Part shown: piece after piece, positions 781-45,498 of the stretch
Layout of the letters: the number at the start of each line of letters is the position of its first letter
Position numbering within the stretch: the first letter of the stretch is position 1
NCBI GenBank assembly: GCA_029571985.1
Contig: JAKQVC010000099.1
Span: 1 to 64,000, forward strand
Length of the DNA: 64,000 nt
Origin: Bacteroidota bacterium
GTDB lineage: Bacteria > Bacteroidota > Bacteroidia > Chitinophagales > BACL12
Reading direction: 5' to 3'
Notes under the pieces: generated by a model
What the model saw: only the letters and a program-made list of their open reading frames with translations
The model's database searches: none
Told to the model about the DNA's origin: nothing
Program-made: the position numbers and the translations under genes

Positions 781-2985
781 TTATTTCGCGATTTTTAATT
801 CGCTGATGAGGTTTTGGGCGCCTGCGTATTTGTCGATGATGAATAATACGTAGCGGATATCTACACTAATTGTTCGGTTCATGGCAGGGTCGAAAATATA
901 ATCGCCCGGTGTGCCTTCGTAGTTGCCATCGAATGCTAAGCCGAGTAATTCGCCTTTGCCGTTCATGATAGGACTACCGCTGTTACCACCGGTAATGTCG
1001 TTATCAGAAATGAAACAAACCGGAACAGTGCCGTTTTTATCGGCATAACGACCGTAGTCTTTATTTTTCCAGAGTTCATATAATTTGTCCGGAACCATAA
1101 ATTCTTCGTCAGTATTATCGCGTTTTTCCATAATACCGTTGAGGTTGGTTTGCCAGTGATAGAAAACTGCATCACGGGCGTTATAATCCTGCACAGTACC
1201 ATAAGTTAAACGCAAGGTGAAGTTGGCATCAGGATAAATGAATTTACCATTTTGTTGCTTCAAAACACCTCCAACATATTCGCGCTCCAATCGGTTGATT
1301 TCACCATTTGCTGCGCGGAATACACTACCTGCTGATTGTGCATCGATATACAATTGAATATAAAAATCGTATAACGGATCTTTCTTCAACTTTTTCTCGT
1401 TTGGTGCTTTCAGATAAGCATCCAGTTTTTCTGGTGAAGTAAATACTGATTTTGCAAATGCAGATTTACTCCAGGTCATAAACTTCTCTTCTGCAGTAGC
1501 ACCTTTTGTTTTTGCTAATATATCGGTAATTACCTGAGGCTGACTTTCAGCTGGTAATTTGTTGTGCAACATCGTTAATAAGGCAGCCAGTTTTTTAATC
1601 TCTGTGTCGTACACGTAAGTCTTCCACATTTCATCACCCGCAGCAGCTACACCATCAATAATAGCCTGACGTTCTTCAGCGCTTGGTTTTTCATCACCAA
1701 ACAGGTTTTCGATATCGTTTAATGATAAGGCGAAATTTCCTGAAGGCATCAATACTACAGAATATATTTTCAAATAAAATTCTGTGTTTGCCGTAGAAAG
1801 TGTAGCGTATTGCTTCTGGAAATTGTTAAACATTTCCTTATACTTCTCTTCTGTAGATGCACCTTGTGCTTTAGCCCACTGCATGAACGTTTTTTCGAAA
1901 TCTTTTTTAATGGCTTCAGCGTCCATGCGTTTCATACCATCAATTTGTGTTTCCCACAATTTCAATGCGTTCATCAATGAAGCGTAATCGCTGGCTAACT
2001 GGATACGAACGGCTTCGCTCTTATCCATATCTGCTTTCATAACATCTGTTACTGTTTCAAAAACAGCAATCTGTGCAGGATTACTTTCATTAATTACCTC
2101 AGTCATGCCATAAGAAGTCAGATAACGTTCGGTTGATCCGGGATAGCCCATAATCATGGTGAAATCGCCTTCTTTATAGCCATCGAGAGAGATGGTTAAG
2201 AATTTTTTCGGTGTATAAGGTTTGTTATTTGCGCTGTATTCAGCAGGGTTATTATCCTGATCGGCATACACACGGAAAATACTAAAGTCACCGGTATGAC
2301 GTGGCCACATCCAGTTGTCAGTATCTCCACCAAATTTACCTACAGAAGATGGTGGTGTACCTACGAGGCGCACATCATTAAATATCTGATACACATAGAT
2401 GAAATACTGATTGCCATAAAACATGGCTTTCAATTCAGCTTCCAGACCATTTTGTGCATAGCGGCTAACCAGTCGGGCTTCAATTTCAGAAACTTTTGCG
2501 CGACGTGCAGCCATATCTAAACCTTCCAGTTTTGGAACGATAGAGTCGGTTACATCAAAGGCATTTTGTAAAATGCGAATGCCCAGTCCTGGAATCGGTA
2601 ATTCTTCGCTATAAGATTTAGCCCAGAATCCGTCATCCAGATAATTATGTTCTGTTGAAGATACAGAGGCAATAGCATCATAACCGCAGTGGTGGTTCGT
2701 AAAGAGCAAACCGTTTTGAGAAACCAGTTCGCCTGTACAGAAGCCGCTTCCGCTGTTGGTCATTTGCACAATAGCGTCTTTGAGACTTGGGTTTTCTGTG
2801 TTGTAGATTTCATCTGCCGACAGCTTAAGGCCGAGTTGGTGCAGATAATCAAAGTTCAACTGGCGAACCAGGTTTGCCAGCCACATCCCTTCATCAGGGT
2901 TAACGGCTGCGCGCACCGGCTGCAGGATGGTTACAAAAGCTATCGCTAAGGCTACCATCATCTTGGTTAAAGTACGACTTATCAT
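781..2985 (-). CDS. S46 family dipeptidyl-peptidase, DPP7-type
   Basis: Secreted or periplasmic serine exopeptidase that removes dipeptides from oligopeptide N-termini, feeding amino-acid catabolism. The 734 residues fit the family's usual 700-720 plus signal peptide. The signal peptide spans about residues 1-26 and ends at VRA-AV. The catalytic His lies in TNHHCGYDAI (H98 or H99) and the nucleophile is S669 in GGNSGSPI. The residue 18 positions after the nucleophile, in AFDGNYEG, is Gly. In this family Gly there goes with DPP7-like hydrophobic P1 preference and Arg with DPP11-like Asp/Glu preference. The gene is single, has its own terminator, and a TAACTTCG -7 box precedes it. The family call is very sure; the specificity is inferred from that residue. 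Confidence 0.95.
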   Translation of the reverse strand: MISRTLTKMMVALAIAFVTILQPVRAAVNPDEGMWLANLVRQLNFDYLHQLGLKLSADEIYNTENPSLKDAIVQMTNSGSGFCTGELVSQNGLLFTNHHCGYDAIASVSSTEHNYLDDGFWAKSYSEELPIPGLGIRILQNAFDVTDSIVPKLEGLDMAARRAKVSEIEARLVSRYAQNGLEAELKAMFYGNQYFIYVYQIFNDVRLVGTPPSSVGKFGGDTDNWMWPRHTGDFSIFRVYADQDNNPAEYSANNKPYTPKKFLTISLDGYKEGDFTMIMGYPGSTERYLTSYGMTEVINESNPAQIAVFETVTDVMKADMDKSEAVRIQLASDYASLMNALKLWETQIDGMKRMDAEAIKKDFEKTFMQWAKAQGASTEEKYKEMFNNFQKQYATLSTANTEFYLKIYSVVLMPSGNFALSLNDIENLFGDEKPSAEERQAIIDGVAAAGDEMWKTYVYDTEIKKLAALLTMLHNKLPAESQPQVITDILAKTKGATAEEKFMTWSKSAFAKSVFTSPEKLDAYLKAPNEKKLKKDPLYDFYIQLYIDAQSAGSVFRAANGEINRLEREYVGGVLKQQNGKFIYPDANFTLRLTYGTVQDYNARDAVFYHWQTNLNGIMEKRDNTDEEFMVPDKLYELWKNKDYGRYADKNGTVPVCFISDNDITGGNSGSPIMNGKGELLGLAFDGNYEGTPGDYIFDPAMNRTISVDIRYVLFIIDKYAGAQNLISELKIAK

Positions 2986-3015
2986 ATTCAGATTATTGTA
3001 TAAGATTTGGTTCGG

Positions 3016-3023
3016 CGAAGTTA
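3016..3023 (-). promoter_or_regulatory. -7 promoter box (TAACTTCG) of the S46 gene
   Basis: On the minus strand the sequence reads TAACTTCG, one mismatch from the Bacteroidota -7 consensus TAnnTTTG, about 30 bases before the start codon at 2985. Confidence 0.45.
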
Positions 3024-3057
3024 CGGCTTAAGCCCCCAATTTGGGCACCAGACACAA

Positions 3058-3086
3058 AAAAAGCGGCCTGAGAGCCGCTTTCTTTA
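3058..3086 (-). terminator. Intrinsic terminator of the small T9SS gene
   Basis: AAAGCGGC (3060-3067) pairs with GCCGCTTT (3074-3081) around a 6-base loop. The plus-strand A run before it becomes a T run on the minus strand. It lies just after the stop of the gene ending at 3100. Confidence 0.85.
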
Positions 3087-3099
3087 ACAAAATTTTAAA

Positions 3100-3498
3100 T
3101 TATTCTTCCTTGAGAAATTTCTTCGTGATAAGGGTATTCCCCTGGTAGCTGGCTGCCAGAAAGTAAACACCGGGTTGCAAATCAGCCAGGCTGACCTTCA
3201 CTTCATCTTTACCGGGTTCAGGAATAATGACCTTGATTTCGCGTCCAACAATGTTCAGAATGCTGATTTTGTCGACGTGTTCGTAGCTAAAGCTAATGGT
3301 AGCGTAGCTTTTAACCGGATTTGGGTTAATGGATACTGTCGGTTCATCATCGCTATCTATAAAGAAAGAGAAGTCTGAAACCGCTTGTGCAGAGGTAATT
3401 ACACAGGGCTCTCCCTCGGGTAAAACCCCCGTAGGCAGCGCTCCATATGCACCGGTAACTGTCGCAGAGACCAGTAACAATGTGTAAAGTTTTCGCAT
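3100..3498 (-). CDS. Small secreted protein with T9SS type A sorting domain
   Basis: A 132-residue protein consisting of little more than a signal peptide (MRKLYTLLLVSATVTGAYG), a short acidic linker and a C-terminal T9SS sorting domain. The domain begins at INPNPVKSYATISF and ends with LQPGVYFLAASYQGNTLITKKF, the usual NPNP...GVY...K(K/F) pattern. It should be exported by Sec and then by T9SS, but has almost no cargo domain, so its role is unknown. The frame extends to 3528, but that start would overlap a promoter box at 3518-3525, so the ATG at 3498, directly before the signal peptide, was chosen. Confidence 0.85.
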   Translation of the reverse strand: MRKLYTLLLVSATVTGAYGALPTGVLPEGEPCVITSAQAVSDFSFFIDSDDEPTVSINPNPVKSYATISFSYEHVDKISILNIVGREIKVIIPEPGKDEVKVSLADLQPGVYFLAASYQGNTLITKKFLKEE

Positions 3499-3517
3499 AG
3501 GCTGTGATCCTTGTTGG

Positions 3518-3525
3518 CTAAGATA
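3518..3525 (-). promoter_or_regulatory. -7 promoter box (TATCTTAG)
   Basis: Minus-strand TATCTTAG, one mismatch from TAnnTTTG, about 20 bases upstream of the start at 3498. It argues against the longer frame starting at 3528. Confidence 0.4.
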
Positions 3526-3564
3526 CAATGATTCTTTTTGAAATACAAAAACCGCGCCATGTGC

Positions 3565-3610
3565 AAAACAGCAGATTTAACTTATGTTAACCTGCCCACT
3601 GTGCTGTTTT
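3565..3610 (-). terminator. Probable terminator after the MoxR gene
   Basis: AAAACAGCA (3565-3573) pairs with TGCTGTTTT (3602-3610). A smaller TTAAC/GTTAA hairpin sits inside. It lies 33 bases past the MoxR stop on the minus strand. The T tract is short (TTTT), so termination is likely but not certain. Confidence 0.55.
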
Positions 3611-3642
3611 CCATACATATAACGGCTGAAACAGGCCTAAAG

Positions 3643-5190
3643 TTACAGGTCATCCTCCTCGTCGTTCTCATCAAACTGGTCGAGCAGATCTAAAGAGGAA
3701 TCATTAAACATGCTCGAAAACAGGTCGGAGAACTGTGTGCCGGCCTGCAGCTGATGTTTACTCAGGAGGCTATATTCGGCCAATCCATGCAGCACAAATT
3801 CCATCAAAAACAACTTTTCCTCGGCACTGGCCTTTGGATGCTGTTTGTCGACTAATTTCTGCAACCCGGGAACAGACTGTAGGGCAAGGGCATATTCCTT
3901 TTGCGATAATTCATTGAGCAGGTCGATGGTATGCCCGTCATTAAACCACTGGATGATGGTTTGATATGCGCCTCCTCCGGCAGATTCTTTTTCGCTTTGT
4001 TTTCGATTTCCGGTTTTCTTTGCTTTTTCAGGCGCAGGAAAATAATGCACGAATTGAGAACGGATGGCTTTGCCAATTAAATTGAGTGCAACGATATATG
4101 GACCTTCCTGTTCGCCTTCATACACCAATTCAATTTTTCCGGTGATGCTTGGAATTAATCCGCTGAAATCTCCAATGCGCACATATGTTTTGGATTCATT
4201 GTTTCTCAATGCACGACGCTCCGATGCAGAAACCAGATTTTCTAATGCCGTGATTGTCATACGCGCACTTACACCTGATTTTTGGTCGACAAATTCACTT
4301 TGTCTTGCTTCAAAAGCGATTTGTTCAACTAAATCATAGGCTAAATCGAACACATGCACAGCAGCTTCCTGGTCGCGGTGTATACCTGCTTCCTGACGTG
4401 TGATTTTTTTTGAAACATGAAGGTCTTTGGGATAATGTGTGAGGATCTGACTTTCAATACGGTCTTTTAATGGTGTAACAATTGATCCCCGGTTGGTATA
4501 ATCTTCGGGATTTGCAGTAAAAACAAATTGAATATCAAGTGGTAAACGCAATTTGAATCCCCTGATTTGCATATCCCCTTCCTGTAAAATATTAAATAAG
4601 GCTACCTGAATTCTTGCCTGTAAATCAGGTAATTCATTGATTACGAAAATGCCGCGATGGGCACGTGGAATTAATCCGTGATGTATAACACGCTCATCAT
4701 TATAATGCAATTTCAAATGCGCAGCCTTTATCGGATCCAGGTCGCCAATAAGATCGGCAATACTCACATCGGGCGTGGCTAATTTTTCGGTATAGCGCTC
4801 GTCGCGATGCAGCCATTCAACAGGAGTTTCATCTCCCATTTCTGCAATCGTATGTTTGGCAAACCAGGAAATGGGTTGCATAGGGTCATCGTGTAATTCG
4901 CTGCCGGCAACATAGGGAATATACGTATCTAACAGGCCGGTCATAAGTCTGGCGATACGTGTTTTTGCCTGTCCGCGTAATCCAAGCAAAATCATATTAT
5001 GTCTGGATAAAATAGCGCGCTCCAAATCCGGAATTACGGTATGTTCAAATCCGTAAACACCTGCAAATACCGGCTTACCGCTTTTTAATTTGCTGATGAG
5101 ATTTCTCCGCAATTCTTCCTTCACAGAAACGGGTGTGTATCCTGAGGCTTTTAATTCACCAAGTGTTTTAATTGTTGGTTGTTTTTCCAT
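3643..5190 (-). CDS. MoxR-type AAA+ ATPase
   Basis: A 515-residue AAA+ ATPase of the MoxR/magnesium-chelatase group, typically a chaperone working with a von Willebrand factor A partner. Walker A is GLRGQAKT (residues 70-77). The Walker B strand is IFVINELPDL (181-190), where the usual Asp is Asn185 before catalytic Glu186. A sensor-1 Asn lies in FTANPEDY (about 227). The C-terminal 100 residues are helical and end in a very acidic tail (FDENDEEDDL). It begins 5 bases after the VWA gene ends, so the two form an operon. The client is unknown. The family assignment is firm; any substrate would be a guess. Confidence 0.9.
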   Translation of the reverse strand: MEKQPTIKTLGELKASGYTPVSVKEELRRNLISKLKSGKPVFAGVYGFEHTVIPDLERAILSRHNMILLGLRGQAKTRIARLMTGLLDTYIPYVAGSELHDDPMQPISWFAKHTIAEMGDETPVEWLHRDERYTEKLATPDVSIADLIGDLDPIKAAHLKLHYNDERVIHHGLIPRAHRGIFVINELPDLQARIQVALFNILQEGDMQIRGFKLRLPLDIQFVFTANPEDYTNRGSIVTPLKDRIESQILTHYPKDLHVSKKITRQEAGIHRDQEAAVHVFDLAYDLVEQIAFEARQSEFVDQKSGVSARMTITALENLVSASERRALRNNESKTYVRIGDFSGLIPSITGKIELVYEGEQEGPYIVALNLIGKAIRSQFVHYFPAPEKAKKTGNRKQSEKESAGGGAYQTIIQWFNDGHTIDLLNELSQKEYALALQSVPGLQKLVDKQHPKASAEEKLFLMEFVLHGLAEYSLLSKHQLQAGTQFSDLFSSMFNDSSLDLLDQFDENDEEDDL

Positions 5191-5195
5191 AATAA

Positions 5196-6290
5196 TTACC
5201 GCACATTGCGCCTGCGGTTGCGTTCATAATCTTCAAATATAAAATCGCCTAATCCTTTTAAACTGGTATAAAAGGCTTTGCCCTGATTGATTTCAGTAAA
5301 CTCTTCAACAAATTGCTGCAAATAACTATCGCGTGCAATCATAAAAGTGGTAATGCGAATACCCAATTTTCGACATTGTGCGGCGAGGTTAAGTGTTTTG
5401 TTTACAATTATCGTATCTAACCCGAAACTGTTTTTATAATATTTGCCATTGCGTATGATACAAGTGGGTTTTCCATCTGTAATCATAAAAATCTGCTTAT
5501 TGGGATTTTTCCTTCTGCGCAAAATATCCATGGCTAATTCAAGTCCGGCAACGGTATTCGTATGATACGGACCAACCTGCAAATAAGGAATATCTTTCAT
5601 TTCTATTTGCCAGGCATCATTACCAAATACAATGATATCGAGGGTGTCCTTCGGATATTTTGTTTTAATGAGTTCACTGAGCGCCATCGCCACTTTTTTG
5701 GCAGGTGTTATTCGATCTTCCCCATATAAAATCATGGAATGCGAAATATCAATCATCAGCACAGTAGAGGTTTGTGCAGTATGTGATTTTTCGGTCACCA
5801 CCATATCGCTTTCATCTAAGTGAAAGTCCTGTATGCCATGATGGATGTATGCATTTTTCAGCGATTCATTAAAGTCAATTTGATCCGGCGCGTCACCATA
5901 TCGGTAATCGCGTTTATCAGAAGTTAATTCATCACCGGAACCGGTATGGGTTGTTTTATGATTACCCGGTGAGCTCTTTTTGAGTTTGCCAAAAATTTGA
6001 TCCAGAGAAGATTTTCGGATGCTCTGTTCCATTTTACCGGTTATCTGCATTTTTCCGGATTCAGGTTCATCTTCTTTTAGAAAACCACGGTCTTTTAATT
6101 CCTGGATAAAATCGCCCATGCCATATTCGGGCGTGGTAATTTGATATTGCTTATCTAATTGATTAAGCCAGGCGAGCGCTTCATCCACATCACCACTGGT
6201 GTACACCAGTAATTCCTGCAACAATTCAAACAAGGTGTCGAATATGTTTTTCTCAGGTTCTTTAAATTGAGAGAAGCGATTGCCAATCAT
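5196..6290 (-). CDS. VWA domain protein, partner of the MoxR ATPase
   Basis: A 364-residue cytoplasmic protein with a helical N-terminal half (about 1-170, with a Lys/Ser-rich linker near 100-130) and a C-terminal von Willebrand A domain (about 175-350). The metal-ion-dependent adhesion site is visible as DISHS (D181, S183, S185), with a Thr/Asp in MITDGKPT further on. No signal peptide or membrane segment is seen. It is the first gene of a two-gene operon with the MoxR ATPase 5 bases downstream. In known MoxR-VWA pairs the VWA protein delivers substrates or metal to the ATPase; that is inferred here. Confidence 0.88.
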
Positions 6291-6329
6291 ACGAATATAC
6301 TTATCGGTATCAGACTTAAAGGGATGTTA

Positions 6330-7370
6330 TCAGCACCTGCGTTTCGGTATATTGAGTGCACCTAATTGTCCGCCAAACAAAATATCCCGCACGCCATCAC
6401 CTCTTAAAAAATCGTGTGGAAATCCTAATTCGATGGCACTCACTTCATGCAATCTTTTCAAATGTTCTGCACTCAGGCTAATCTGCGTGGCGCCGATACT
6501 GTCTTTGAGTTGCTCAACGTTGCGTGCTCCAACAATCGGAATGATGTTTTGTCCCTGCAGCATAACCCATTTTATAGCCACTTGTGCAGGACTGCATCCG
6601 GTTTCTGTGGCAATGTTTACGACTTCCTGTGCTATTTTTCTGTTGCGCTCATTTAAGCGAACACTGTTTGCCTGTAATCTTTTTGGGTCGCCGTTATCCT
6701 GCAAATATTTTCCGGTTAATGCACCGCCCGCAATTGGTGCCCAGGCAACTACGCCTAATTCGAGTGCCTCGGCCATCGGAATTAAATCGCGCTCAACAGT
6801 GCGTTGGATTAAACTGTATTCAATTTGTAAAGCAATAAATGGATCCCATCCGCGTAAATCAGCAATAGCATTTGCGCGACTTACAATCCATGCAGGTGTA
6901 TCGGAAATAGCTACATAAAATATTTTTCCCTGCTGCACTAAATCATGCAAGGCACGTAAAACTTCTTCGGCTTGTGTGGTAAAATCCCATGCATGGAGAT
7001 ATAAAATATCGATGTGATCTACTTGTAATCTGCGCAAACTTCCTTCAACAGACTGCACCATATTTTTTCTGTGGTTTCCAGCGAGATTTAATCCGCGCTC
7101 ATGCGTAACCAGGGCATATTTTGTGGCTATGACCAAATCATCCCGTCGTCCGCTTTGTTTGATGAGCTCACCTAAAAATCGCTCACTGGTGCCCTCTGTG
7201 TATCGGTTGGCTGTATCTATGAAGTTTCCTCCAGCTTCCAGGAAGGCGTGAAATTGTTTGCTGCTTTCCTCAAAACCCGCTCCCCATCCCCATTCTTCAC
7301 CAAAGGTCATGGTGCCTAAACAAATTTCCGAAACCCTGAGACCGCTACGGCCTAATAATGTATATCGCAT
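6330..7370 (-). CDS. Aldo/keto reductase
   Basis: A 346-residue NADPH-dependent oxidoreductase of the AKR superfamily, a cytoplasmic TIM barrel. The tetrad is recognisable: D52 and Y57 in FIDTANRYTEG, K84 in IATKY, and H126 in LYLHAWD. The cofactor-binding end contains IPIVGARNVEQLKDSIGA (about 275-292). The length is normal. It lies 39 bases upstream of the VWA gene on the same strand and may be cotranscribed, with no obvious functional link. The substrate cannot be read from sequence; the LGTMTFG start places it with the YajO/Tas-like reductases. Confidence 0.92.
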   Translation of the reverse strand: MRYTLLGRSGLRVSEICLGTMTFGEEWGWGAGFEESSKQFHAFLEAGGNFIDTANRYTEGTSERFLGELIKQSGRRDDLVIATKYALVTHERGLNLAGNHRKNMVQSVEGSLRRLQVDHIDILYLHAWDFTTQAEEVLRALHDLVQQGKIFYVAISDTPAWIVSRANAIADLRGWDPFIALQIEYSLIQRTVERDLIPMAEALELGVVAWAPIAGGALTGKYLQDNGDPKRLQANSVRLNERNRKIAQEVVNIATETGCSPAQVAIKWVMLQGQNIIPIVGARNVEQLKDSIGATQISLSAEHLKRLHEVSAIELGFPHDFLRGDGVRDILFGGQLGALNIPKRRC

Positions 7371-33621: not shown

Positions 33622-34398
33622 TCAGGATGCCCCGTTTAAAGCATTTAAATGATCGAGAAAAGCACTCTTTTTTCGCATAGATACAGGCACTTCACTGCCA
33701 TCCGACATGATTACCATGCCGCCTTCCTTATTGCGGAAGGATTTAACATGATTCAGGTTGATTAAATGCGAATGATGCACGCGCTCGAAACCTGCACCTT
33801 CCAGGCTTTCTTCAATTTCTTTCAGAATTTTGGCTAGCAATATTTTACTTCCATCCCGCAGAAATACAAAGCTGTAATTACCATAACTATTGCATCGTAT
33901 AATATCGGCAATTTGAATGACATGCAATCCTTCTGATGTATGCAGAATAATTTTCTTTTGCTGTACCGTGTGTAAGTTGGCTGCATTAGGCTGAGGCAGC
34001 GGACTTCCTGTGTGTCTGGTTTGCAAGGCAACCTTTACCTTTTCAATTGCCTGTATGAGTTCACTGCTGTCAATGGGTTTTAGTAAGTAATCAACGGCAC
34101 TTGTTTTAAATGCTTTAATTGCATATTCTGAATAGGCAGTTGTAAATACAATCGCAAAATCCTGACCATCGGACTGCTCTAAAATTGTAAAACCTAAACC
34201 ATCCGATAACTGTATATCCAGAAAAATTAAATCCGGCGATAGTTGTTTGATTAACGGAACGGCTGTAGCTATACTATCCGCTTCTCCAACGATGTCGATA
34301 TCCGGACAATTCAATTGAATTTCCTGTTTGAGTGCCGAGCGTGCGCGCGATTCATCGTCGATTATAATAGTTTTGAGCATATGGTTGGTATTAGACAT
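33622..34398 (-). CDS. LytTR-family response regulator
   Basis: A 258-residue two-component regulator. The receiver domain (about 8-125) has acidic residues D14/D15, phospho-acceptor D61 in LIFLDIQLSDG, and K of YLLKPID. A LytTR DNA-binding domain occupies about 155-255 (IADIIRCNSYGNYSFVFLRDG and FERVHHSHLINLNHVKSF). It overlaps the 3' end of the sensor kinase gene by 8 bases, so the two are translationally coupled. A second ATG at 34380 (MLKTIIIDDE) would remove six residues. The target promoters are not known. Confidence 0.93.
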   Translation of the reverse strand: MSNTNHMLKTIIIDDESRARSALKQEIQLNCPDIDIVGEADSIATAVPLIKQLSPDLIFLDIQLSDGLGFTILEQSDGQDFAIVFTTAYSEYAIKAFKTSAVDYLLKPIDSSELIQAIEKVKVALQTRHTGSPLPQPNAANLHTVQQKKIILHTSEGLHVIQIADIIRCNSYGNYSFVFLRDGSKILLAKILKEIEESLEGAGFERVHHSHLINLNHVKSFRNKEGGMVIMSDGSEVPVSMRKKSAFLDHLNALNGAS

Positions 34399-37291
34399 AA
34401 ATAAGTGGCATGCTAAGCGTTACCCGTGTTCCGGTTGGATTTCCTGCCGCATCCATGTCATCGTGAATGTGCAGGGTAAATGCCTCTGTTTTACTCCGGG
34501 TGTTTAACGCCTGTAAATATTCTGTAATCAATAAAGTGGCTTTAGAACTATGTTCTTTTAATCTGGTTTTTCCGGCAGCAGCCGAGCGGCCAATACCATT
34601 ATCCGTAATCGTGCAAACCAGCCGGTCAGCAGATTGAGAAAAATCAATGGCAATATGACCCTTAACCTGCAACGGAGCGATGCCGTGCACAATAGCATTC
34701 TCCACAAATGGCTGTATAAGCATTGGAGGAATAGATACATCCTGACTATTTAATCCGGGATGCACGTTTACACTATAGGTGAATTTGTGTTCGTAGCGCA
34801 TCGCTGCCAGATCCATATAGAGTTGTAAGGCATGAATCTCTTTTTCGAGCGGTACCACATGTTCGCTGTTTTCCAGAATCGTGCGCAGTAGCCGGCTAAA
34901 TTTAGAAATATACTCGCTGGCTTCCTTAATATTATTTTCAGCATAGTAACCTTTAATCGTATTCAGCGCATTGAAAATAAAATGCGGATTCATCTGCTGT
35001 CTGAATGCCTGTTGATTAAGGTCGCTGATTAATTTGTCCGATTCTGCTTTTTCTTTTTCCAGTCTGATAGTGCGTTGTTCACTTTCGAAATTGCGTTTTA
35101 TTTTGCGTAGTCGCCATTTCCATGCAATGCCGATGGCTGCCGCTGTCCAGATTAGCACAGCCACAATAAACCACCATTCTTTCCAAACCGGTTTTTTGAT
35201 GTGAATGGGTAATGTGAGTACAGTACTCGTTATGCCGGCAGAGTTTGTTGCTTTAACAAGAAAACGATAATTGCCCGAAGGAAGCGATTTATACTGGATA
35301 ATACGCTCCCGGGTTTCATGCCATTCATTATCATATCCACTTAAATAATAGGCATATTTAATTTGATCACCCGACAGGTAACTCGTACCGGTATATGAAA
35401 TCGCAATATCATTTTCACCATGGCGCAGGCTGCTCAGGAATGAGGTGCTCACCTGCCTGTTGTTGAGCAAAATATCACCAAACCGCAGAAGGGGAGGGGT
35501 GTTGAATATTTCACTGGCGTCGGGATCGAAACTGATGAGTCCTGTTTCCGTGCTGATATACATCTTACCCTTGTAGGTGTCAATATCTGTAATACGTGTG
35601 GCAACAATTTTCAAACGATTACTGTAATTAGTCAGTTCAAATTGATTGCCTGTGCGTTTAAAGGCTACAATTTTATTGCCGAATGCTGCCCAAATGCGAT
35701 TGTTTGCATCCACAAAAACCGCATTACAATCGCTGTTCGGCAATCCGTCTTCATCGTTCAACTGATTGAGTAACTGACCATCTTTATACACCAGCAAACC
35801 ATTCATGGTTGCCAGGTACACATCACCATTATTGCGGTCAAATGCCAGATCCCGAACCGGATACGTAAATGTTTTATGTGCCGCACCCCAATATTGCAGA
35901 TTATTATTGGAATAGGTATATAAGCCACGCGAGGTGCCGATATATACAATGCCATTATGTTCCTTTATCACATTGGTACGGTCCTGTAACAATTCATAAT
36001 TTGACCGTCGCTGTTGCAAATTGAAAACGATTTCATATATCGTTTCGTCAAATTGTTCGCGGGTGAGGTGCAAGGTATAGTCTTGTGCCAGAAATACACC
36101 CTGATACTTACTCAACAATATGTCATTTCCATATATGCCGAAATATATATTTCCGTTTGCTGTTTTCCGCGCAATATCACCCTTGCCGATAATGTAAATC
36201 TCATTGTCAAATTCGCGAATATTGGTCACATCGATTCGCGATTGTTTGGGTAATCGGTAAATATTCGTTTGGCCTGAGGTATCAAATTGGGCGTAATAAT
36301 CTGATGCCATTCCAACCCACAACGCACCGGTATGATCTTGTTCCAGGCAAGTGATTTTATTTTCCGGTAATCCATATCTGGTATTCCAGATTTGTACATT
36401 TAAATTTGGAATCATAAAAGCGCCGGATTCCAGTGTGCTTAACCATAAATTGTTTTCAAAATCCCAGGCAACACTCGAAATGGAATAGCCTTCCATAATT
36501 GCCACAGGCGGGTCTTCACCGGTTTTATCCCAGATATATAATCCATTACGGGTGCCGATAAATATTTCTTTAGCCGATTTTATTTTTATGAAAATGATTT
36601 CTTCACTAATAACAGGTAGCGAGAGAACGGGCTCGATATGATCGGGGTCTATTATTTGAAACACATCTCTTTCCTGACAAACTAAATTCAGATCACCCAG
36701 TCTGTTTCCACGAATGGGGTATTTTTTTTTTAATTTATCTCTTTGAACCGTATAGAGCTTACCGGCTTCATCAACCCACATATAGTTTTCAAATCCTGCA
36801 ATCTGGAGGTATTCTATATGATTATGCTTGTCGATTTTAACCAGATTGTTGGGCCTACCGTTTATATATAAATCTCCCGCACTATTTTCCACTTCACTGA
36901 GAATCATTTTTGTAAAAGTCATCTGTGCGAGCAAACTGTCATTGCTCTTATTCTTTATTTCACCATCGAGATAATAACTGGGATTTCCGTTCATGGACTG
37001 AAACCAGATGCGGCCTTTTTTATCCTGGTACAAACGTAAAATCTCATTATCGCCAAGGCCGTCTTCACTCGTGAAATGTTCGAAGGTATATCCGTCGTAT
37101 CGATACACACCTGTGTTGGTTGCCAGCCACATAATATCTCCGGCATCCCGGAACACATAGAATACCGTGGTAGGTAAATAATCGCCTGAAGGTTTAATTG
37201 GAATAACGAGGGGATGCTGTGCTTTTACTGCACTTGCCTGCCATAAAGCACCCATGATTAAGCATACAATCAACCTGTTTGTAATCCCCAT
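34391..37291 (-). CDS. Propeller-type sensor histidine kinase (LytS-like)
   Basis: A 966-residue membrane sensor. The signal peptide is followed by a periplasmic region of Reg_prop-type propeller blades (about 30-620, with WLATNTGVYRYDGYTFEHFTSEDGLGDN), then a Y_Y_Y domain (about 625-705), one transmembrane helix (about 710-730), a coiled-coil and a His_kinase domain. The phospho-accepting H770 is in MNPHFIFNALNTIKGYY, and the ATPase part has PMLIQPFVENAIVHG and ITDNGIGRS. Blades of this type often sense glycans or other envelope ligands in Bacteroidota. It is the first gene of the two-component operon. Confidence 0.93.
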   Translation of the reverse strand: MGITNRLIVCLIMGALWQASAVKAQHPLVIPIKPSGDYLPTTVFYVFRDAGDIMWLATNTGVYRYDGYTFEHFTSEDGLGDNEILRLYQDKKGRIWFQSMNGNPSYYLDGEIKNKSNDSLLAQMTFTKMILSEVENSAGDLYINGRPNNLVKIDKHNHIEYLQIAGFENYMWVDEAGKLYTVQRDKLKKKYPIRGNRLGDLNLVCQERDVFQIIDPDHIEPVLSLPVISEEIIFIKIKSAKEIFIGTRNGLYIWDKTGEDPPVAIMEGYSISSVAWDFENNLWLSTLESGAFMIPNLNVQIWNTRYGLPENKITCLEQDHTGALWVGMASDYYAQFDTSGQTNIYRLPKQSRIDVTNIREFDNEIYIIGKGDIARKTANGNIYFGIYGNDILLSKYQGVFLAQDYTLHLTREQFDETIYEIVFNLQQRRSNYELLQDRTNVIKEHNGIVYIGTSRGLYTYSNNNLQYWGAAHKTFTYPVRDLAFDRNNGDVYLATMNGLLVYKDGQLLNQLNDEDGLPNSDCNAVFVDANNRIWAAFGNKIVAFKRTGNQFELTNYSNRLKIVATRITDIDTYKGKMYISTETGLISFDPDASEIFNTPPLLRFGDILLNNRQVSTSFLSSLRHGENDIAISYTGTSYLSGDQIKYAYYLSGYDNEWHETRERIIQYKSLPSGNYRFLVKATNSAGITSTVLTLPIHIKKPVWKEWWFIVAVLIWTAAAIGIAWKWRLRKIKRNFESEQRTIRLEKEKAESDKLISDLNQQAFRQQMNPHFIFNALNTIKGYYAENNIKEASEYISKFSRLLRTILENSEHVVPLEKEIHALQLYMDLAAMRYEHKFTYSVNVHPGLNSQDVSIPPMLIQPFVENAIVHGIAPLQVKGHIAIDFSQSADRLVCTITDNGIGRSAAAGKTRLKEHSSKATLLITEYLQALNTRSKTEAFTLHIHDDMDAAGNPTGTRVTLSMPLIYV

Positions 37292-39085: not shown

Positions 39086-40747
39086 ATGAAACTGAACTAC
39101 CTGATCCTGTTGGCCGCCAGCGCTTTTATGGCAGCATCCTGCTCAACACAGTCGGCCTCCCGAGGTGCTTCAACTGACGATATTTACTTCTCCACAAGCG
39201 ATCCAACGCCTACGGAGACCATTACAACCGAAACCACCACCATTTCTTCATCAGAAAGCTACAGCACGTATCCCGGAACGTCAACCACTCCGGAATATAG
39301 CTATTCAGCTCCTCAGGAAGACGTTGACTACCGCACAGGCGCCGACGATCTGGGAGAGTCTGAAACCTATTATGATGATGAGGGGAATACTTACATCGTA
39401 AATAACTATTACGATGACAATGACTACGATGATTTTTATTACACATCGAGCATTTACCGTTTTTACTACCCGTATAGCGGCTTTGGTTACAATGCCTACT
39501 GCTACACACCTTATTATTACGACCCATTCTGGAATCCGGGCTGGGGTTGGAATGTAGGCTGGAATAGCTGGAATGGCTGGTACGGCGGCTGGGGTTATAA
39601 TGCCGGCTGGTGCTATAACGGCTGGGGCTGGAACAATGGCTGGAATAATGGCTGGGGCGGATGGTATGGTGGCTGGGGCAATCCATACGGCTGGGGCGGC
39701 TGGGGATATCCTTATGGCTATTACGATCCATGGGGCTACAACTACGGCTACTGGAATGGTTACAATAATGGCTATTGGAATGGCTATTATGATGGATATT
39801 ACGGTGGTTACTATGGAAATGGCAATGGTTATTATGGCTATGATGATAGCAACTACTATTACGGACCAAATTCAGGAACCGGTTCTAATACCAATACCGG
39901 TGTGATGTCATCTACCATATTGAGTGCCGGTTACGATAAAGCTGCTGAAAACACAGACGGAAATCACATATTAACTGATAAGGGCGAATTGATGGTATCA
40001 CGAGATGATGTGAATACTAAGCCTGGCATGGAATCTGGCACTACAAGCGGTACGCTTGGCTCTTCAACCATTAAAGGTGAATTGGCCGGAAAACCCGGAG
40101 CCGTTTCTTTGAATGAACCTGTTGCCCTGAACGACCTGCAAACCGGAACAGGCAGTGATATAACCCGTAATGATGCTGGTGTGCGTGTAATTAAATATTA
40201 CAGTGCAGATTCTAAACCTGCTTCAGAACCGGTTGCTTCAACTGTAGTGATGAACGACAGAGGCGCTCGTGGTCCGAACAGCTATTCCAATAAGCCTGTT
40301 ACCACAACTGTTCAACCGAATAAACCGGCAAATACACCTGTAAAATCAGATGCCGTAAATATGAATCAGAAACCGGTGGATGCTCCAAAAACATTCGACC
40401 GTCCTGAACAAAAGACACCTGTGTATGGTAAACCGGAACAGCAGAAACCGACTTATTCAAAGCCTGATCAAAAGCAGCCTGTATATCAACAACCTGATAA
40501 AAAGCCTGTATATGAGCAGCCTGCTACTAAGCCGAATAAAACGTATGAGCAACCAAGCAAACCAAATAAAACATACGAACAACCGAGCAAGCCTAAATAC
40601 GAACCTGCACCAAGGTCTTACGACCCTCCAAAGAGCAGTTCAGGCAACAAAGGTGGTTCTTATAACAGCGGTAGCTCAAATAAGCCTAGTTCATCCGGTA
40701 ACAGACCATCTAACACTGGTTCACGCAATCGCAGCGGCGGAAAATAA
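39086..40747 (+). CDS. Gly/Trp/Tyr/Asn-rich lipoprotein with proline-rich tail
   Basis: A 553-residue lipoprotein (lipobox MAASC, Cys near residue 19) of unusual composition. An acidic Tyr/Asp stretch (about 70-130) is followed by about 120 residues made almost only of Gly, Trp, Tyr and Asn, with about 19 Trp in some 85 residues and units such as GWNNGW, GGWYGGW and YWNGYNNGYWNGYYDGYYGG. The last 140 residues are Pro/Lys/Gln-rich with repeated YEQPSKPNK. No catalytic domain is visible. It is probably a surface or cell-wall structural protein. It lies between proS and an OmpP1-like porin and is 36 bases before the latter. The start at 39041 was rejected because it lacks a signal at its N-terminus. 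Confidence 0.85.
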   Translation: MKLNYLILLAASAFMAASCSTQSASRGASTDDIYFSTSDPTPTETITTETTTISSSESYSTYPGTSTTPEYSYSAPQEDVDYRTGADDLGESETYYDDEGNTYIVNNYYDDNDYDDFYYTSSIYRFYYPYSGFGYNAYCYTPYYYDPFWNPGWGWNVGWNSWNGWYGGWGYNAGWCYNGWGWNNGWNNGWGGWYGGWGNPYGWGGWGYPYGYYDPWGYNYGYWNGYNNGYWNGYYDGYYGGYYGNGNGYYGYDDSNYYYGPNSGTGSNTNTGVMSSTILSAGYDKAAENTDGNHILTDKGELMVSRDDVNTKPGMESGTTSGTLGSSTIKGELAGKPGAVSLNEPVALNDLQTGTGSDITRNDAGVRVIKYYSADSKPASEPVASTVVMNDRGARGPNSYSNKPVTTTVQPNKPANTPVKSDAVNMNQKPVDAPKTFDRPEQKTPVYGKPEQQKPTYSKPDQKQPVYQQPDKKPVYEQPATKPNKTYEQPSKPNKTYEQPSKPKYEPAPRSYDPPKSSSGNKGGSYNSGSSNKPSSSGNRPSNTGSRNRSGGK

Positions 40748-40783: not shown

Positions 40784-42289
40784 ATGCGTAAGATATTCAC
40801 AATGGTTTTAGCCACTGCTTTGTCTGCACTTTCCTATGCACAAAGTGATGCAGATGCACTTCGGTATTCGATGCTTGAATTTGGTGGAACAGCCAGATCG
40901 CTTGGATCAGGAAATGCATACGGCGCCTTGGGCGGAGATATGAGTTCTGCCTCTATGAATCCGGCAGGTCTGGGTATTTATCGTAGTTCTGAATTTGGCA
41001 TTTCAACCAGATTGCTCAGCATCGATGCGAGTGCATCGTATTATGGCAATACTACATCAGACAATCGATATGATTTTGCCTTAAGCAATGCCGGGTTTGT
41101 ATTTGCGAATGTAAATAAAGGACGAGAAAGAGCTACCAATGCCTGGGTGGGTGGTGCATTTGCACTTACCTATAATCATATAGCAGATTTTAATAGTGCT
41201 GTTACCTATTCAGGTTTCAATGAGCATAGTTCTTTATTGGATACTTACGTATCTTATCTGAATGCCGGTGCGGGAACTGCGCCGGGTGATGTGTATGATG
41301 CAGATCCATTTGGCGCCGGACTGGCATGGGATACTTATTTAATTAATCCTATGCCGCTGGATAGTATGCATTACTTCAGCGAAATTGCAGATGGCCGTGT
41401 GCAACAAACAAAATCAATAACAACTAATGGCGGTATCAATGAATTTTCTATAGCCTTTGCCGGTAATTATGGTAATAGACTATATATCGGTGGAGCTATT
41501 GGTATTCCACATATCCGTTATGTGCAATCGTATGTATATAGCGAAGAGGATGTGCAGAATGAACACCCAAACTTCAACAGCTTTGCACTTACAGATGTAT
41601 CTGAAACATATGGAACAGGTATTAACGCAAAAATTGGATTGATTTATCGGATAAACGATTACTTACGTTTAGGAGCAGCAGCGCATACACCAACCTTATA
41701 CGGTATGTCTGATGCATATTTTTCATCTATGTCGAGTGATGTTGCCAGTGGTACTTACAGTACAGAATCACCCATTGGTGAATATAATTATGAGTTAGTT
41801 ACACCATGGCGTGTGAGCGGAAGCGCAGCGGTTACCTTGAAAAATATAGGTTTTATCAGCGCAGAATATGAATTTGTTGATTACAGTGAAGCTGCTTATA
41901 ATTTCAATCGCACTTACGATGCCGGTGATTTATCCTATGAATCAACCGTAAATACTAATATTGATACAAAATATGGCACTGCAAGCAATATCCGGTTTGG
42001 CGCTGAATTGATGTATGATGTTTTTCGATTCAGAGGCGGATATATCATGAGCAGTACACCGTTTAATGAAGGTATTGCTGCACAGGATGCCGACTTTTCA
42101 AGAAATACCTATACCGCAGGAATTGGCATTAAAGAAGAATCATTTTTTATTGATTTCGGATTTTCGCATACTACCACCAATGAGTATGATATCGAGTATC
42201 TCTACGATAATGGATCAGGCGTAAATGAAGGCGCATCGATCAACAGATCGCTGAACAATTTCCTGTTAAGTTTTGGTTTTAGGTTTTAA
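40784..42289 (+). CDS. OmpP1/FadL/TodX-like outer membrane porin
   Basis: A 501-residue outer-membrane protein. The signal peptide (TALSALSYAQ) is followed by the family's hatch-like N-terminus, GTARSLGSGNAYGALGGDMSSASMNPAGLGIYRSSE, and a barrel of alternating strands. The last residues NNFLLSFGFRF end in aromatic Phe, as needed for barrel insertion. Homologues import hydrophobic compounds such as fatty acids; PorV of the T9SS belongs to the same superfamily, so a secretion role cannot be excluded. It is followed by a strong terminator. Confidence 0.88.
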   Translation: MRKIFTMVLATALSALSYAQSDADALRYSMLEFGGTARSLGSGNAYGALGGDMSSASMNPAGLGIYRSSEFGISTRLLSIDASASYYGNTTSDNRYDFALSNAGFVFANVNKGRERATNAWVGGAFALTYNHIADFNSAVTYSGFNEHSSLLDTYVSYLNAGAGTAPGDVYDADPFGAGLAWDTYLINPMPLDSMHYFSEIADGRVQQTKSITTNGGINEFSIAFAGNYGNRLYIGGAIGIPHIRYVQSYVYSEEDVQNEHPNFNSFALTDVSETYGTGINAKIGLIYRINDYLRLGAAAHTPTLYGMSDAYFSSMSSDVASGTYSTESPIGEYNYELVTPWRVSGSAAVTLKNIGFISAEYEFVDYSEAAYNFNRTYDAGDLSYESTVNTNIDTKYGTASNIRFGAELMYDVFRFRGGYIMSSTPFNEGIAAQDADFSRNTYTAGIGIKEESFFIDFGFSHTTTNEYDIEYLYDNGSGVNEGASINRSLNNFLLSFGFRF

Positions 42290-42478: not shown

Positions 42479-43021
42479 ATGCACCTCTCTTTCTCAATTG
42501 GATTTGATGCGTTTTTAACCTACCAGTTATTTCATGCGTCACAATCGCCTTTAGTTCAAAAAAAACGCCGTAGGTCCAAATGGACAATTGTTGGACTTGT
42601 TGTGTTGGCGATTGTGCTGATGGTGTTTCTCGAAAATTATGGTTTGGCGTTGTTGTATACCGTTTTTGGCATTGCCTGGTTTTTTTTGTATCCGATTTAT
42701 GAGCGGGGATACTATAAAAAACACTATATCAAATCACTGAAAGAAAAATTAGCCGGAATATCCGAAAAACAAATCGAACTGGACATCACGCCATCCGGTA
42801 TTCATGCCCGGGAAGATGGGAGTGAAGGCAATATAGAGGTAAGTAAAGTAAATAGCGTCCAGGAACTCCCTGATATATTTTTAATACAATTACAACAAAG
42901 TATGGCCTTCATTATTCCTAAACAACAGGTAGATGAAGCAGCCGTAAAAACACATCTCCAAAACCTCGCCGATCTATGGAAGGTGCCTTATGTTTCTAAT
43001 CTCAATTGGAAATGGAAGTAG
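42479..43021 (+). CDS. YcxB-like membrane protein
   Basis: A 180-residue protein with a short N-terminal part, a basic KKRRRSK patch, two membrane helices (about 36-52 and 56-72), and a C-terminal soluble domain with the YcxB-type pattern IELDITPSGIHAREDGSEGNIEVSKVNSVQELPDIFLIQLQQSMAFIIPKQ. The function of this family is not established. It stands alone after the porin terminator and before the repeat cluster. Confidence 0.78.
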   Translation: MHLSFSIGFDAFLTYQLFHASQSPLVQKKRRRSKWTIVGLVVLAIVLMVFLENYGLALLYTVFGIAWFFLYPIYERGYYKKHYIKSLKEKLAGISEKQIELDITPSGIHAREDGSEGNIEVSKVNSVQELPDIFLIQLQQSMAFIIPKQQVDEAAVKTHLQNLADLWKVPYVSNLNWKWK

Positions 43022-43602: not shown

Positions 43603-45498
43603 ATGCAATACAAAAGTTTACAAGCATTTGTTGATGCGCTGGAAGCCGCCGGGGAATTGGTGCGGGTAAAGGAGTTTGTTGATCCAAAACTGGAGATAAC
43701 CGAAATAGCCGACAGATATATCAAATCTGATAAACCTGCTCTGCTTTTTGAAAATACAGGCACCGGATTTCCGCTGCTGATCAATAGCATGGGCTCTTAC
43801 AAACGTATGTGCATGGCCTTGGGTGTCGACCATCTGGATGCTATTGGCGATGATATAGCCGGATTGTTTAAGAAATTCACCTCTCCGAAACAAGGATTAC
43901 TGGATAAAGTCATGATGCTCCCCGAACTCGGAAAAGTGGCTTCATGGATGCCGAAAGAAATAAAAGGGAAGGGTGCTTGTCAGGAAGTTGTGATGCAAGA
44001 CCCCGATATCACCAAATTACCGGTCATGACCTGCTGGCCTGCCGATGGTGGTCCGTTTATTACTTTGCCCGTCATTCATACCATTGATCCTGAAAATGGT
44101 ATTCGCAACGTGGGCATGTATCGCATGCAAGTGTTTGGTCCGAAATTAACAGGCATGCACTGGCATAAACATAAAGTGAGTGCCGGTCATTTTAATAAAT
44201 ACAAGCAATTGGGAAAACGCATGCCGGTGAGTGTTGTTTTAGGCGGTGATCCGGTATATACCTATTGCGCAACAGCACCGCTTCCGCCAAATGTGGATGA
44301 ATATTTATTGGCAGGATTTATTCGCAAGCGAAAAGTAGAATTGGTAAAATGCATCACGAACGAATTATATGTACCTGCTGATGCCGATTTTGTGATAGAA
44401 GGATACGTTGACCCGCAAGAGGATTTTATTTATGAAGGTCCGTTTGGTGACCATACCGGATATTATTCACTTGCAGATTATTATCCTAAGTTTCATATCA
44501 CTTGCATCACACATAAAAAACATGCCATTTATCCTTCAACCATTGTCGGTATTCCCCCTCAGGAAGATGCGTGGATTGGCAAAGCAACTGAACGTATTTT
44601 CCTCACACCCATTAAACTTACCATGTTGCCAGAGGTGGAAGATATGGAATTACCAATAGAAGGTGTTTTTCATAACCTCACCATCGTAAAAATTAAAAAA
44701 GAATATGCCGGTCATGCGCAGAAAGTAATGAATGCTATGTGGGGTGCCGGTCAGATGATGTTTAATAAAATTTTGGTGATTTGCGATACCGGGGTAGATA
44801 TTCATGATTATGCAGCAGTAGCAAAAGCCATCAGCAATCATGTTGATCCTGCACAGGATATTTATTTCAGCACAGGTCCTATGGATGTGCTGGATCATTC
44901 CTGCAGTAAATTTGCTTTCGGCGGCAAAATGTGTATTGATGCTACTGAGAAATTACCTGAAGAAATTTCACCGGCCCATACACCTGCTCAACCCTTCCGT
45001 TTGGATGTTCAGGGTTTGATGAGCAGATATGGTGACATCGTTTATATAAATGATTCCCTGCTGCATTCGGGCATGAATTGTTTGTGTATTGCTGTAAAAA
45101 AATCAAAACCCGGACATATCCGGCAATTGCACCAACAGTTGTCGCAAGACCCGGCTTTACAACAGGTGAAATTCATTGCCTACGTTGATCATACGGTTGA
45201 AGCTGCGGATATAGCCGTAGTAACCTGGAATACAGCAAACAATATGGATGCACGCCGCGATGCTTTTGTAGTGCCTGGTTTGCATGGCAATCAGATATGT
45301 GGTTTTGATGGCACGCGTAAATCAAAGCAATTGGATGGTTTCGATCGTCCATGGCCAAATGTAATTGTAATGGATGCAGCTACAATTACTGCCATCGACC
45401 AAAAATGGGAAAAGCTGGGCTTAGGTGCGTTCCTGCCCTCTCCTTCGCACAAATACCTCAATCAGGTTGTAGGTACCGGTGCTGTTGTTGAAGAATAG
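43603..45498 (+). CDS. UbiD-family decarboxylase
   Basis: A 631-residue cytoplasmic decarboxylase of the UbiD family, using prenylated FMN supplied by a UbiX protein not in this window. Family segments are visible: EITEIADRYIKSDKPALLFEN, NVGMYRMQVFGPKLTGMHWHKHK, YVDPQEDFIYEGPFGDHTGYYS (Glu of the active site), and SMTSD-like HTAQPFRLDVQG later. In Bacteroidota such proteins usually act in menaquinone or aromatic-acid metabolism. The length is above the average UbiD (about 490) because of the extra C-terminal region seen in the menaquinone-associated subfamily. Confidence 0.9.
   Translation: MQYKSLQAFVDALEAAGELVRVKEFVDPKLEITEIADRYIKSDKPALLFENTGTGFPLLINSMGSYKRMCMALGVDHLDAIGDDIAGLFKKFTSPKQGLLDKVMMLPELGKVASWMPKEIKGKGACQEVVMQDPDITKLPVMTCWPADGGPFITLPVIHTIDPENGIRNVGMYRMQVFGPKLTGMHWHKHKVSAGHFNKYKQLGKRMPVSVVLGGDPVYTYCATAPLPPNVDEYLLAGFIRKRKVELVKCITNELYVPADADFVIEGYVDPQEDFIYEGPFGDHTGYYSLADYYPKFHITCITHKKHAIYPSTIVGIPPQEDAWIGKATERIFLTPIKLTMLPEVEDMELPIEGVFHNLTIVKIKKEYAGHAQKVMNAMWGAGQMMFNKILVICDTGVDIHDYAAVAKAISNHVDPAQDIYFSTGPMDVLDHSCSKFAFGGKMCIDATEKLPEEISPAHTPAQPFRLDVQGLMSRYGDIVYINDSLLHSGMNCLCIAVKKSKPGHIRQLHQQLSQDPALQQVKFIAYVDHTVEAADIAVVTWNTANNMDARRDAFVVPGLHGNQICGFDGTRKSKQLDGFDRPWPNVIVMDAATITAIDQKWEKLGLGAFLPSPSHKYLNQVVGTGAVVEE

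Follow-up and report, generated by a model that had tools for sequence, protein, structure and literature searches.

Aromatic-rich, putatively disordered envelope proteins form a conserved gene pair with a FadL-superfamily barrel in Bacteroidota

The transporters FadL, TodX and TbuX share their fold with the outer-membrane barrel considered here (por), and we know of no disordered partner for any of them. A sequence grammar comparable to that of the aromatic-rich protein encoded next to por (hereafter Q), in which a Tyr-rich uncharged part is joined to an Arg-rich tail, is familiar from FG-repeat nucleoporins and FUS. The curli protein CsgF has CsgG, and not a FadL barrel, as its partner. Reported to be an outer-membrane secretion partner whose aromatic residues drive a phase separation needed for its function, CsgF resembles Q and provides an earlier case of a condensate driven by aromatics at this membrane, whereas its sequence is unrelated, its location is the cell surface and its aromatics are Phe instead of Trp and Tyr (PMC10133297); condensation of Q is what we propose by analogy.

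In F. johnsoniae, a lipoprotein (Fjoh_4940) and a FadL homologue (Fjoh_4941) with closely spaced genes are both reported to rise upon TamL depletion (PMC12045153). They resemble Q and por in being an outer-membrane lipoprotein gene near a FadL homologue, and both proteins were detected; judged from gene order alone they may be the F. johnsoniae Q-por pair, to which the accessible part of the report assigns no function (PMC12045153). The remark on these two proteins is the nearest that our literature search came to the Q family, of which it returned no description. A FadL-fold barrel and a lipoprotein acting as a pair are likewise reported for BamG-BamH (in B. thetaiotaomicron, BamG2-BamH2 form a putative operon), with the difference that BamH is folded, elongated and placed on the surface, whereas Q has no predicted fold and its family mostly lacks the surface-export signal (PMC12611786, PMC12578637). 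The loop EL3 of Bacteroidota BamA, described as flexible and rich in Tyr, Gly and Asn, shares residue classes with the aromatic segment of Q and is, as proposed for that segment, flexible and attached to an outer-membrane barrel, yet it comprises 38-39 residues inside the barrel protein and is extracellular (PMC12578637). The Q segment, of about 105 residues, belongs to a protein of its own and adds Trp and tandem tetrads. In the host genome, BamA (L310, G000:C189) lacks the extracellular Tyr/Gly/Asn-rich loop that B. thetaiotaomicron and P. gingivalis are reported to possess; its richest 40 residues hold only 20 Y/W/F/G/N.

Within the window (the whole 64,000-nucleotide stretch of DNA that was analysed), Q is a 553-aa protein (MKLNY...RSGGK) encoded on the forward strand at 39086-40744 (stop 40745-40747); a longer alternative ORF from 39041 would place 15 more residues ahead of the signal peptide. 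The lipoprotein signal peptide (39086-39142; AF2 helix at residues 2-18) carries the lipobox AASC with Cys19, and is followed, 11 residues past the lipid Cys, by the motif DDIYF (39176-39190; DDxYY in the family), which opens an acidic linker (residues 31-98, 39176-39379). Next come the conserved TYYDDEGNTYIVNNYY stretch (39362-39412), a nearly uncharged aromatic segment of the form (Gly-aromatic-x-x)n (residues 147-262, 39524-39871), and a basic tail rich in Pro/Ser/Thr/Asn and Lys/Arg (residues 263-553, 39872-40744), in which a 30-bp tandem repeat of 2.1 copies (40535-40599) codes for YEQPSKPNK-type units. The gene for por (501 aa, 40784-42286, stop to 42289) lies downstream on the same strand, and proS (proline--tRNA ligase, TIGR00408; 37518-38987, reverse strand) is the divergent neighbour. 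The original prediction had read the lipobox as placing the protein in the envelope, the segment as lying at 39530-39900, the tail as Pro/Lys/Gln-rich with YEQPSKPNK repeats and the following gene as a porin, all of which agree with this layout. A search at E 1 returned a single copy of Q from the host genome; a second, 17-residue match to the Q core profile (G000:C8:4992-5042, reverse strand, E 0.0056) is weak and probably due to chance.

AF2 modelled Q with a mean pLDDT of 45 (453 of 553 residues below 50), values that may reflect disorder or an alignment of poor quality (mean column identity 17%), and, besides the signal peptide, the only secondary structure predicted was a beta-hairpin (93-96/102-105) in the TYYDDEGNTYIVNNYY stretch. 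On the strength of this model, Q would be mostly disordered and almost without structure. Curated models were of little help: at E 1 the window Q matched nothing in Pfam or NCBIfam, the 70 family members searched against Pfam gave just one Cornifin and one UL20A match (both weak and of low complexity) and no peptidoglycan-binding domain, and 26 members searched against NCBIfam gave scattered weak matches shared by at most two members each. Solved structures, searched by phmmer and by profile, were matched at chance level only, and scanning genome contigs with the single Q protein produced 19 pattern matches and no relative. Q and por are described here as a two-gene unit that is without a family name, curated model or assigned role.

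A protein search recovered Q from 29 of 60 related genomes, and the 28 stretches around the matches outside the window had proS within reach in 27 cases and por in 25 (in two of the three fetched stretches without por the contig ends there). Named genomes, whose records are titled Chitinophagales, Sphingobacteriales, Flavobacteriales, Bacteroidales and others, were scanned with the core profile and gave 54 Q loci; the expectation that homologues would sit beside proS and a porin-type gene was borne out, since por was held by 50 and proS by 45 of them, and any other window neighbour by at most four. Among the loci without por, two (L070 and L112) are on contigs that end with Q, and two (L093 and L109) offered enough room and had no detectable por. 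The Q-por pairing persists without an adjacent proS at seven named loci and in family f4.

Starting from the barrel gave a similar picture. In the order, por was present in 120 of 129 drawn genomes (E 1e-30), and the upstream reading covered these genomes with a por match, nine of the 129 having none. Q stood upstream of por in 25 of 25 genomes read earlier and, by a fixed composition rule, in 85 of 95 further ones. Three of the remainder (G386, G395, G398) fell narrowly under the tail threshold and have Q profile matches of E 3e-17, 1e-32 and 4e-17, and two (G015, G365), with Q-like tails visible, were set aside because a contig end cuts the upstream side of por. Five of 93 (G037, G056, G377, G389, G397) have no Q at this position, and in G037 Q adjoins proS elsewhere in the genome. 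Altogether, por is immediately preceded by Q in 113 of the 118 genomes that could be evaluated (88 of 93 new ones plus the 25). From a draw across the phylum, the best 30 of 49 por-like matches were examined, and 29 of these genes follow an ORF that is rich in aromatics and has a basic tail; since many of these distant proteins (lipoproteins beginning CYTQ) remain below the Q profile threshold, their kinship rests on position and composition. The Gly/Asn share falls outside the order, with Y/W/F/G/N down to 39 per 100 residues in G141. The 65-position core profile found Q in 10 of 296 phylum genomes, a figure that marks a sensitivity limit, as Q-like genes proved far more widespread when por was taken as the starting point. 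The gene order thus gives good support for Q as a dedicated genetic partner of por, the unit being kept through the whole order and, in a look-alike form, through much of the phylum.

The AF2 model of por is a confident barrel (pLDDT 90) with structural matches to FadL, TodX, TbuX, CymD and BamG (E 1e-12 to 1e-18, TM by target 0.56-0.68), a fold match to solved FadL-type barrels that places it in the FadL superfamily. The top match was B. thetaiotaomicron BamG (E 1.7e-18), followed by E. coli FadL and F. johnsoniae BamG, FadL proper scoring near BamG; a sequence profile search ranked TbuX first. Unlike the FadL/TodX/TbuX transporters, the window por falls below the threshold of Pfam Toluene_X (PF03349; no match), a model that 18 of 41 por relatives match (best 2.8e-15); PorV_fam is matched by 19 and BamG, weakly, by five of the 41. 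The NCBIfam model for BamG (NF053685, cut-off 250 bits) did not list por in its own genome at E 0.01 and instead matched another gene (C138:26935-28290, in two pieces of 107 and 115 bits, each below the cut-off); por was therefore rejected as the host's BamG, and Q-por is better regarded as a separate FadL-type pair. By eye, this BamG-like gene is located between ORFs resembling type III pantothenate kinase and LptC (L212, G000:C138:22500-31000). Two further assignments were rejected: por as a type IX system PorV/PorQ (among the NCBIfam PorV models it reached only PorVQ2, with 20.3 bits against a cut-off of 325), and Q as BamH, in view of the missing predicted fold, the missing acidic export signal after Cys19 and the chance-level structure matches.

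Three positions (D31, Y34 and R125) are invariant among the 70 members of the Q family, and the best-conserved stretch has the consensus (G)NTYITNNYY...RRFY. The DDxYY motif is spaced 8-13 residues past the lipid Cys in the 31 lipidated members, and in those without a lipobox it lies just past the predicted cleavage before Gln, a cleavage that agrees with the reported Bacteroidetes Q-rule (PMC5837995). Charge is distributed in three zones: the N-terminal linker is negative in 70 of 70 members, the aromatic segment is about neutral and the tail is positive in 69 of 70. The tail itself extends over some 260 residues across the family, is Arg-rich (median net charge +23) and carries Arg or Lys at the penultimate or final position in 58 of 70 members.

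In the window Q, the richest 85 residues (149-233) contain 19 Trp, and the richest 120 (from residue 132, about 39479-39838) contain 28 Tyr, 19 Trp and 2 Phe (49 aromatics) together with 36 Gly, 19 Asn, 6 Pro and only three charged residues, all of them Asp (Glu, Lys, Arg and His are absent), just as the original prediction of about 19 Trp in 85 residues with hardly any charge would have it. An aromatic stretch combined with a basic low-complexity tail was observed in 51 of 53 family members vs 0 of 333 other ORFs (at least 230 aa, from the 54 related loci), a difference beyond chance. The accompanying claim that Trp must be under selection fared worse. Across 70 members Trp varies from 0 to 28 per 120 aa (a same-genus relative has at most 6 per 85 aa, vs 19 in the window Q), while W+Y+F stays at 45.3 +/- 6.3, and Trp-specific selection was rejected on these grounds. 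Permuting W and Y among members gave a mean standard deviation of 11.9 vs the 6.3 observed (0 of 20000 permutations as low, kinship ignored), and the two residues correlate at -0.67. What is conserved is the aromatic class and not Trp: where one of Trp and Tyr falls, the other rises.

The segment also obeys a spacing. Gly and aromatics recur at lag 4 (z 17.6 and 14.7, respectively), and again at 8 and 12, and 49 of 70 segments, variable in length among members, have at least three tandem Gly-aromatic-x-x tetrads vs 2.2 expected from shuffles. Taken together, the W/Y compensation and the tandem tetrads suggest that the rule is a repeat grammar of aromatic stickers and Gly/Asn spacers. Aromatics two residues apart are depleted (z -12.9), which led us to reject Q as a mimic of chaperone targets, whose motif is aromatic-x-aromatic. 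Predicted disorder, repeated aromatic stickers and low-charge spacers are sequence-level traits of phase-separating or cohesive proteins, and all are present in Q; its composition is, so far as sequence can tell, supported as being of this kind.

A single homologue tells against a fixed need for the segment. In G020 (L143 / L309:3024-3452), a 143-aa protein with lipobox, DDVYF and a basic Arg/Ser/Thr tail has no aromatic segment, and sits between proS and a por gene, the pair being intact. The outcome named beforehand as fatal to a functional segment (ends kept, segment missing) was thus encountered once; order-wide, 113 of 113 Q genes keep the segment, with a minimum of 22 aromatics per 100 residues. 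Members of family f20 are shorter and have fewer aromatics, which may mean that erosion proceeds by degrees. G020 is evidence that loss of the segment occurs, and not evidence that it is idle in general.

Lipidation varies as well. By signal type, the 70 members comprise 31 with a lipobox, 28 cleaved before Gln by a script pattern and 11 that the pattern left unclassified, the majority of these reading -AQ by eye. Surface lipoproteins of the phylum are reported to begin, immediately behind the lipid Cys, with acidic residues; shifting this signal a few residues from the Cys reduced export in C. canimorsus (PMC5080379). The window Q continues STQSA after Cys19, without such a signal; at least two acidic residues at +2 to +6 were found in 0 of the 31 lipidated members, and two such residues in 2 of 18 lipidated Q of the order set (G033, G045). 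As the export signal is mostly missing and about half of the family is non-lipidated, a periplasm-facing place appears the better guess, and likelier than that of a surface adhesive.

We reason that Q may be a disordered, outer-membrane-anchored partner of por, the aromatic repeats of which would form a cohesive mesh at the barrel's periplasmic mouth (a reading to which we assign a probability of roughly 0.42). Anchoring, disorder, near absence of charge in the aromatic chain and an Arg-rich tail together point to a multivalent, sticky polymer beside the barrel. The lipid would hold the protein to the periplasmic side of the outer membrane, and relatives without a lipobox could make another contact near the N-terminus, at the invariant DDxYY. 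The (Gly-aromatic-x-x)n segment would behave as a nearly uncharged sticker-and-spacer chain and condense into a cohesive, hydrated mesh that might either cluster barrels or take up hydrophobic cargo from them, while the tail could reach an acidic surface, for which the cell wall or the tyrosines of further Q copies would be the simplest candidates. We prefer, with moderate confidence, cohesion at the barrel over cargo gathering or wall tethering. Standing against this reading are G020 without the segment, the five of 93 por genes without Q, L093 and L109 with Q and no por, and the acidic residues of G033 and G045. A bolder version, drawn by analogy, would see a phylum-wide periplasmic condensate, a hydrogel-like Q mesh under FadL-type barrels serving as a selective sink or filter for incoming hydrophobic molecules; we hold it to be doubtful. 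If the aromatic chain does work as a cohesive mesh at an outer-membrane barrel, it would amount to a widespread instance of condensate-type chemistry in bacterial envelopes, with consequences for the passage of hydrophobic compounds through the outer membrane of Bacteroidota. F. johnsoniae offers a genetically tractable species with such a putative pair.

Other roles can be read from the same data. That por acts as a BamG-like or PorV-like scaffold, with Q as its flexible, chaperone-like companion in the assembly of outer-membrane proteins and lipoproteins, is suggested by the BamG top match, the PorV_fam and weak BamG matches among por relatives, the Tyr/Gly/Asn-rich, flexible EL3 of Bacteroidota BamA (PMC12578637) and the response of Fjoh_4940/4941 to TamL loss, provided that they are orthologous (PMC12045153). 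We consider it unlikely, because the BamG model misses por and matches a different gene in the host, FadL proper nearly equals BamG in the structure score, the host BamA is without the loop, and no protein of this kind appears among the subunits in the accessible descriptions of the BAM complexes from F. johnsoniae, B. thetaiotaomicron and P. gingivalis. Composition and repeat grammar would also suit a structural or adhesive lipoprotein whose segment lies outside the cell and adheres there to surfaces, to glycans or to itself. In Bacteroidota it is common for a surface lipoprotein to be paired with a barrel. BamG-BamH is one such pair (PMC12578637), and the acidic residues of G033 and G045 point the same way; the near-absence of the export signal, the reduced export upon its displacement in C. 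canimorsus (PMC5080379), the roughly half of the family that is non-lipidated and a pairing that is fixed across very different lineages, which we would not expect of typical adhesins, make this rather unlikely. From the earlier suggestion of an adhesive or phase-separating protein, we thus retain the cohesive or phase-separating composition, under selection as an aromatic class, and regard the surface adhesive as unsupported.

The long basic tail with its terminal Arg/Lys, and the retention of lipid end and tail in G020, would also fit a tether between outer membrane and cell wall, anchored by lipid, binding peptidoglycan through the tail and using the segment mainly as a spacer; this is quite improbable, as the search of the 70 members against Pfam found no peptidoglycan-binding domain, and a spacer leaves the constant aromatic total and the tetrad repeat unexplained. 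Least probable by far, and already disfavoured, is dispensable low-complexity drift, in which slippage lengthens and shortens repeats and composition tracks that of the bases. Short imperfect DNA repeats are present, segment length varies, the segment is missing in G020 and the Trp share weakly tracks GC (rho 0.34), whereas the aromatic total is constant and independent of GC (rho -0.15, p 0.21), the W/Y compensation was unmatched by permutation and the segment is kept order-wide; slippage as its sole cause was rejected on the GC independence of the aromatic total and the DNA-repeat evidence. The preferred reading remains that of a cohesive partner at the periplasmic mouth of por.

The surroundings of the pair yielded a few minor observations. 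At L308 (G005, a genome of the same family), an extra small lipoprotein gene is apparently inserted between proS (5077-6636, forward strand) and Q (2081-3958, reverse strand). In the window, the region downstream of por encodes a small membrane protein with a YcxB-like domain (42479-43021, forward strand; PF14317, E 1.2e-5) and a 631-aa ORF that by eye resembles a UbiD-family decarboxylase (43603-45498, forward strand; in 4 of 54 related loci), and a 966-aa ORF on the reverse strand (34391-37291) resembles, again by eye, a two-component-type sensor histidine kinase with a propeller-like sensor.
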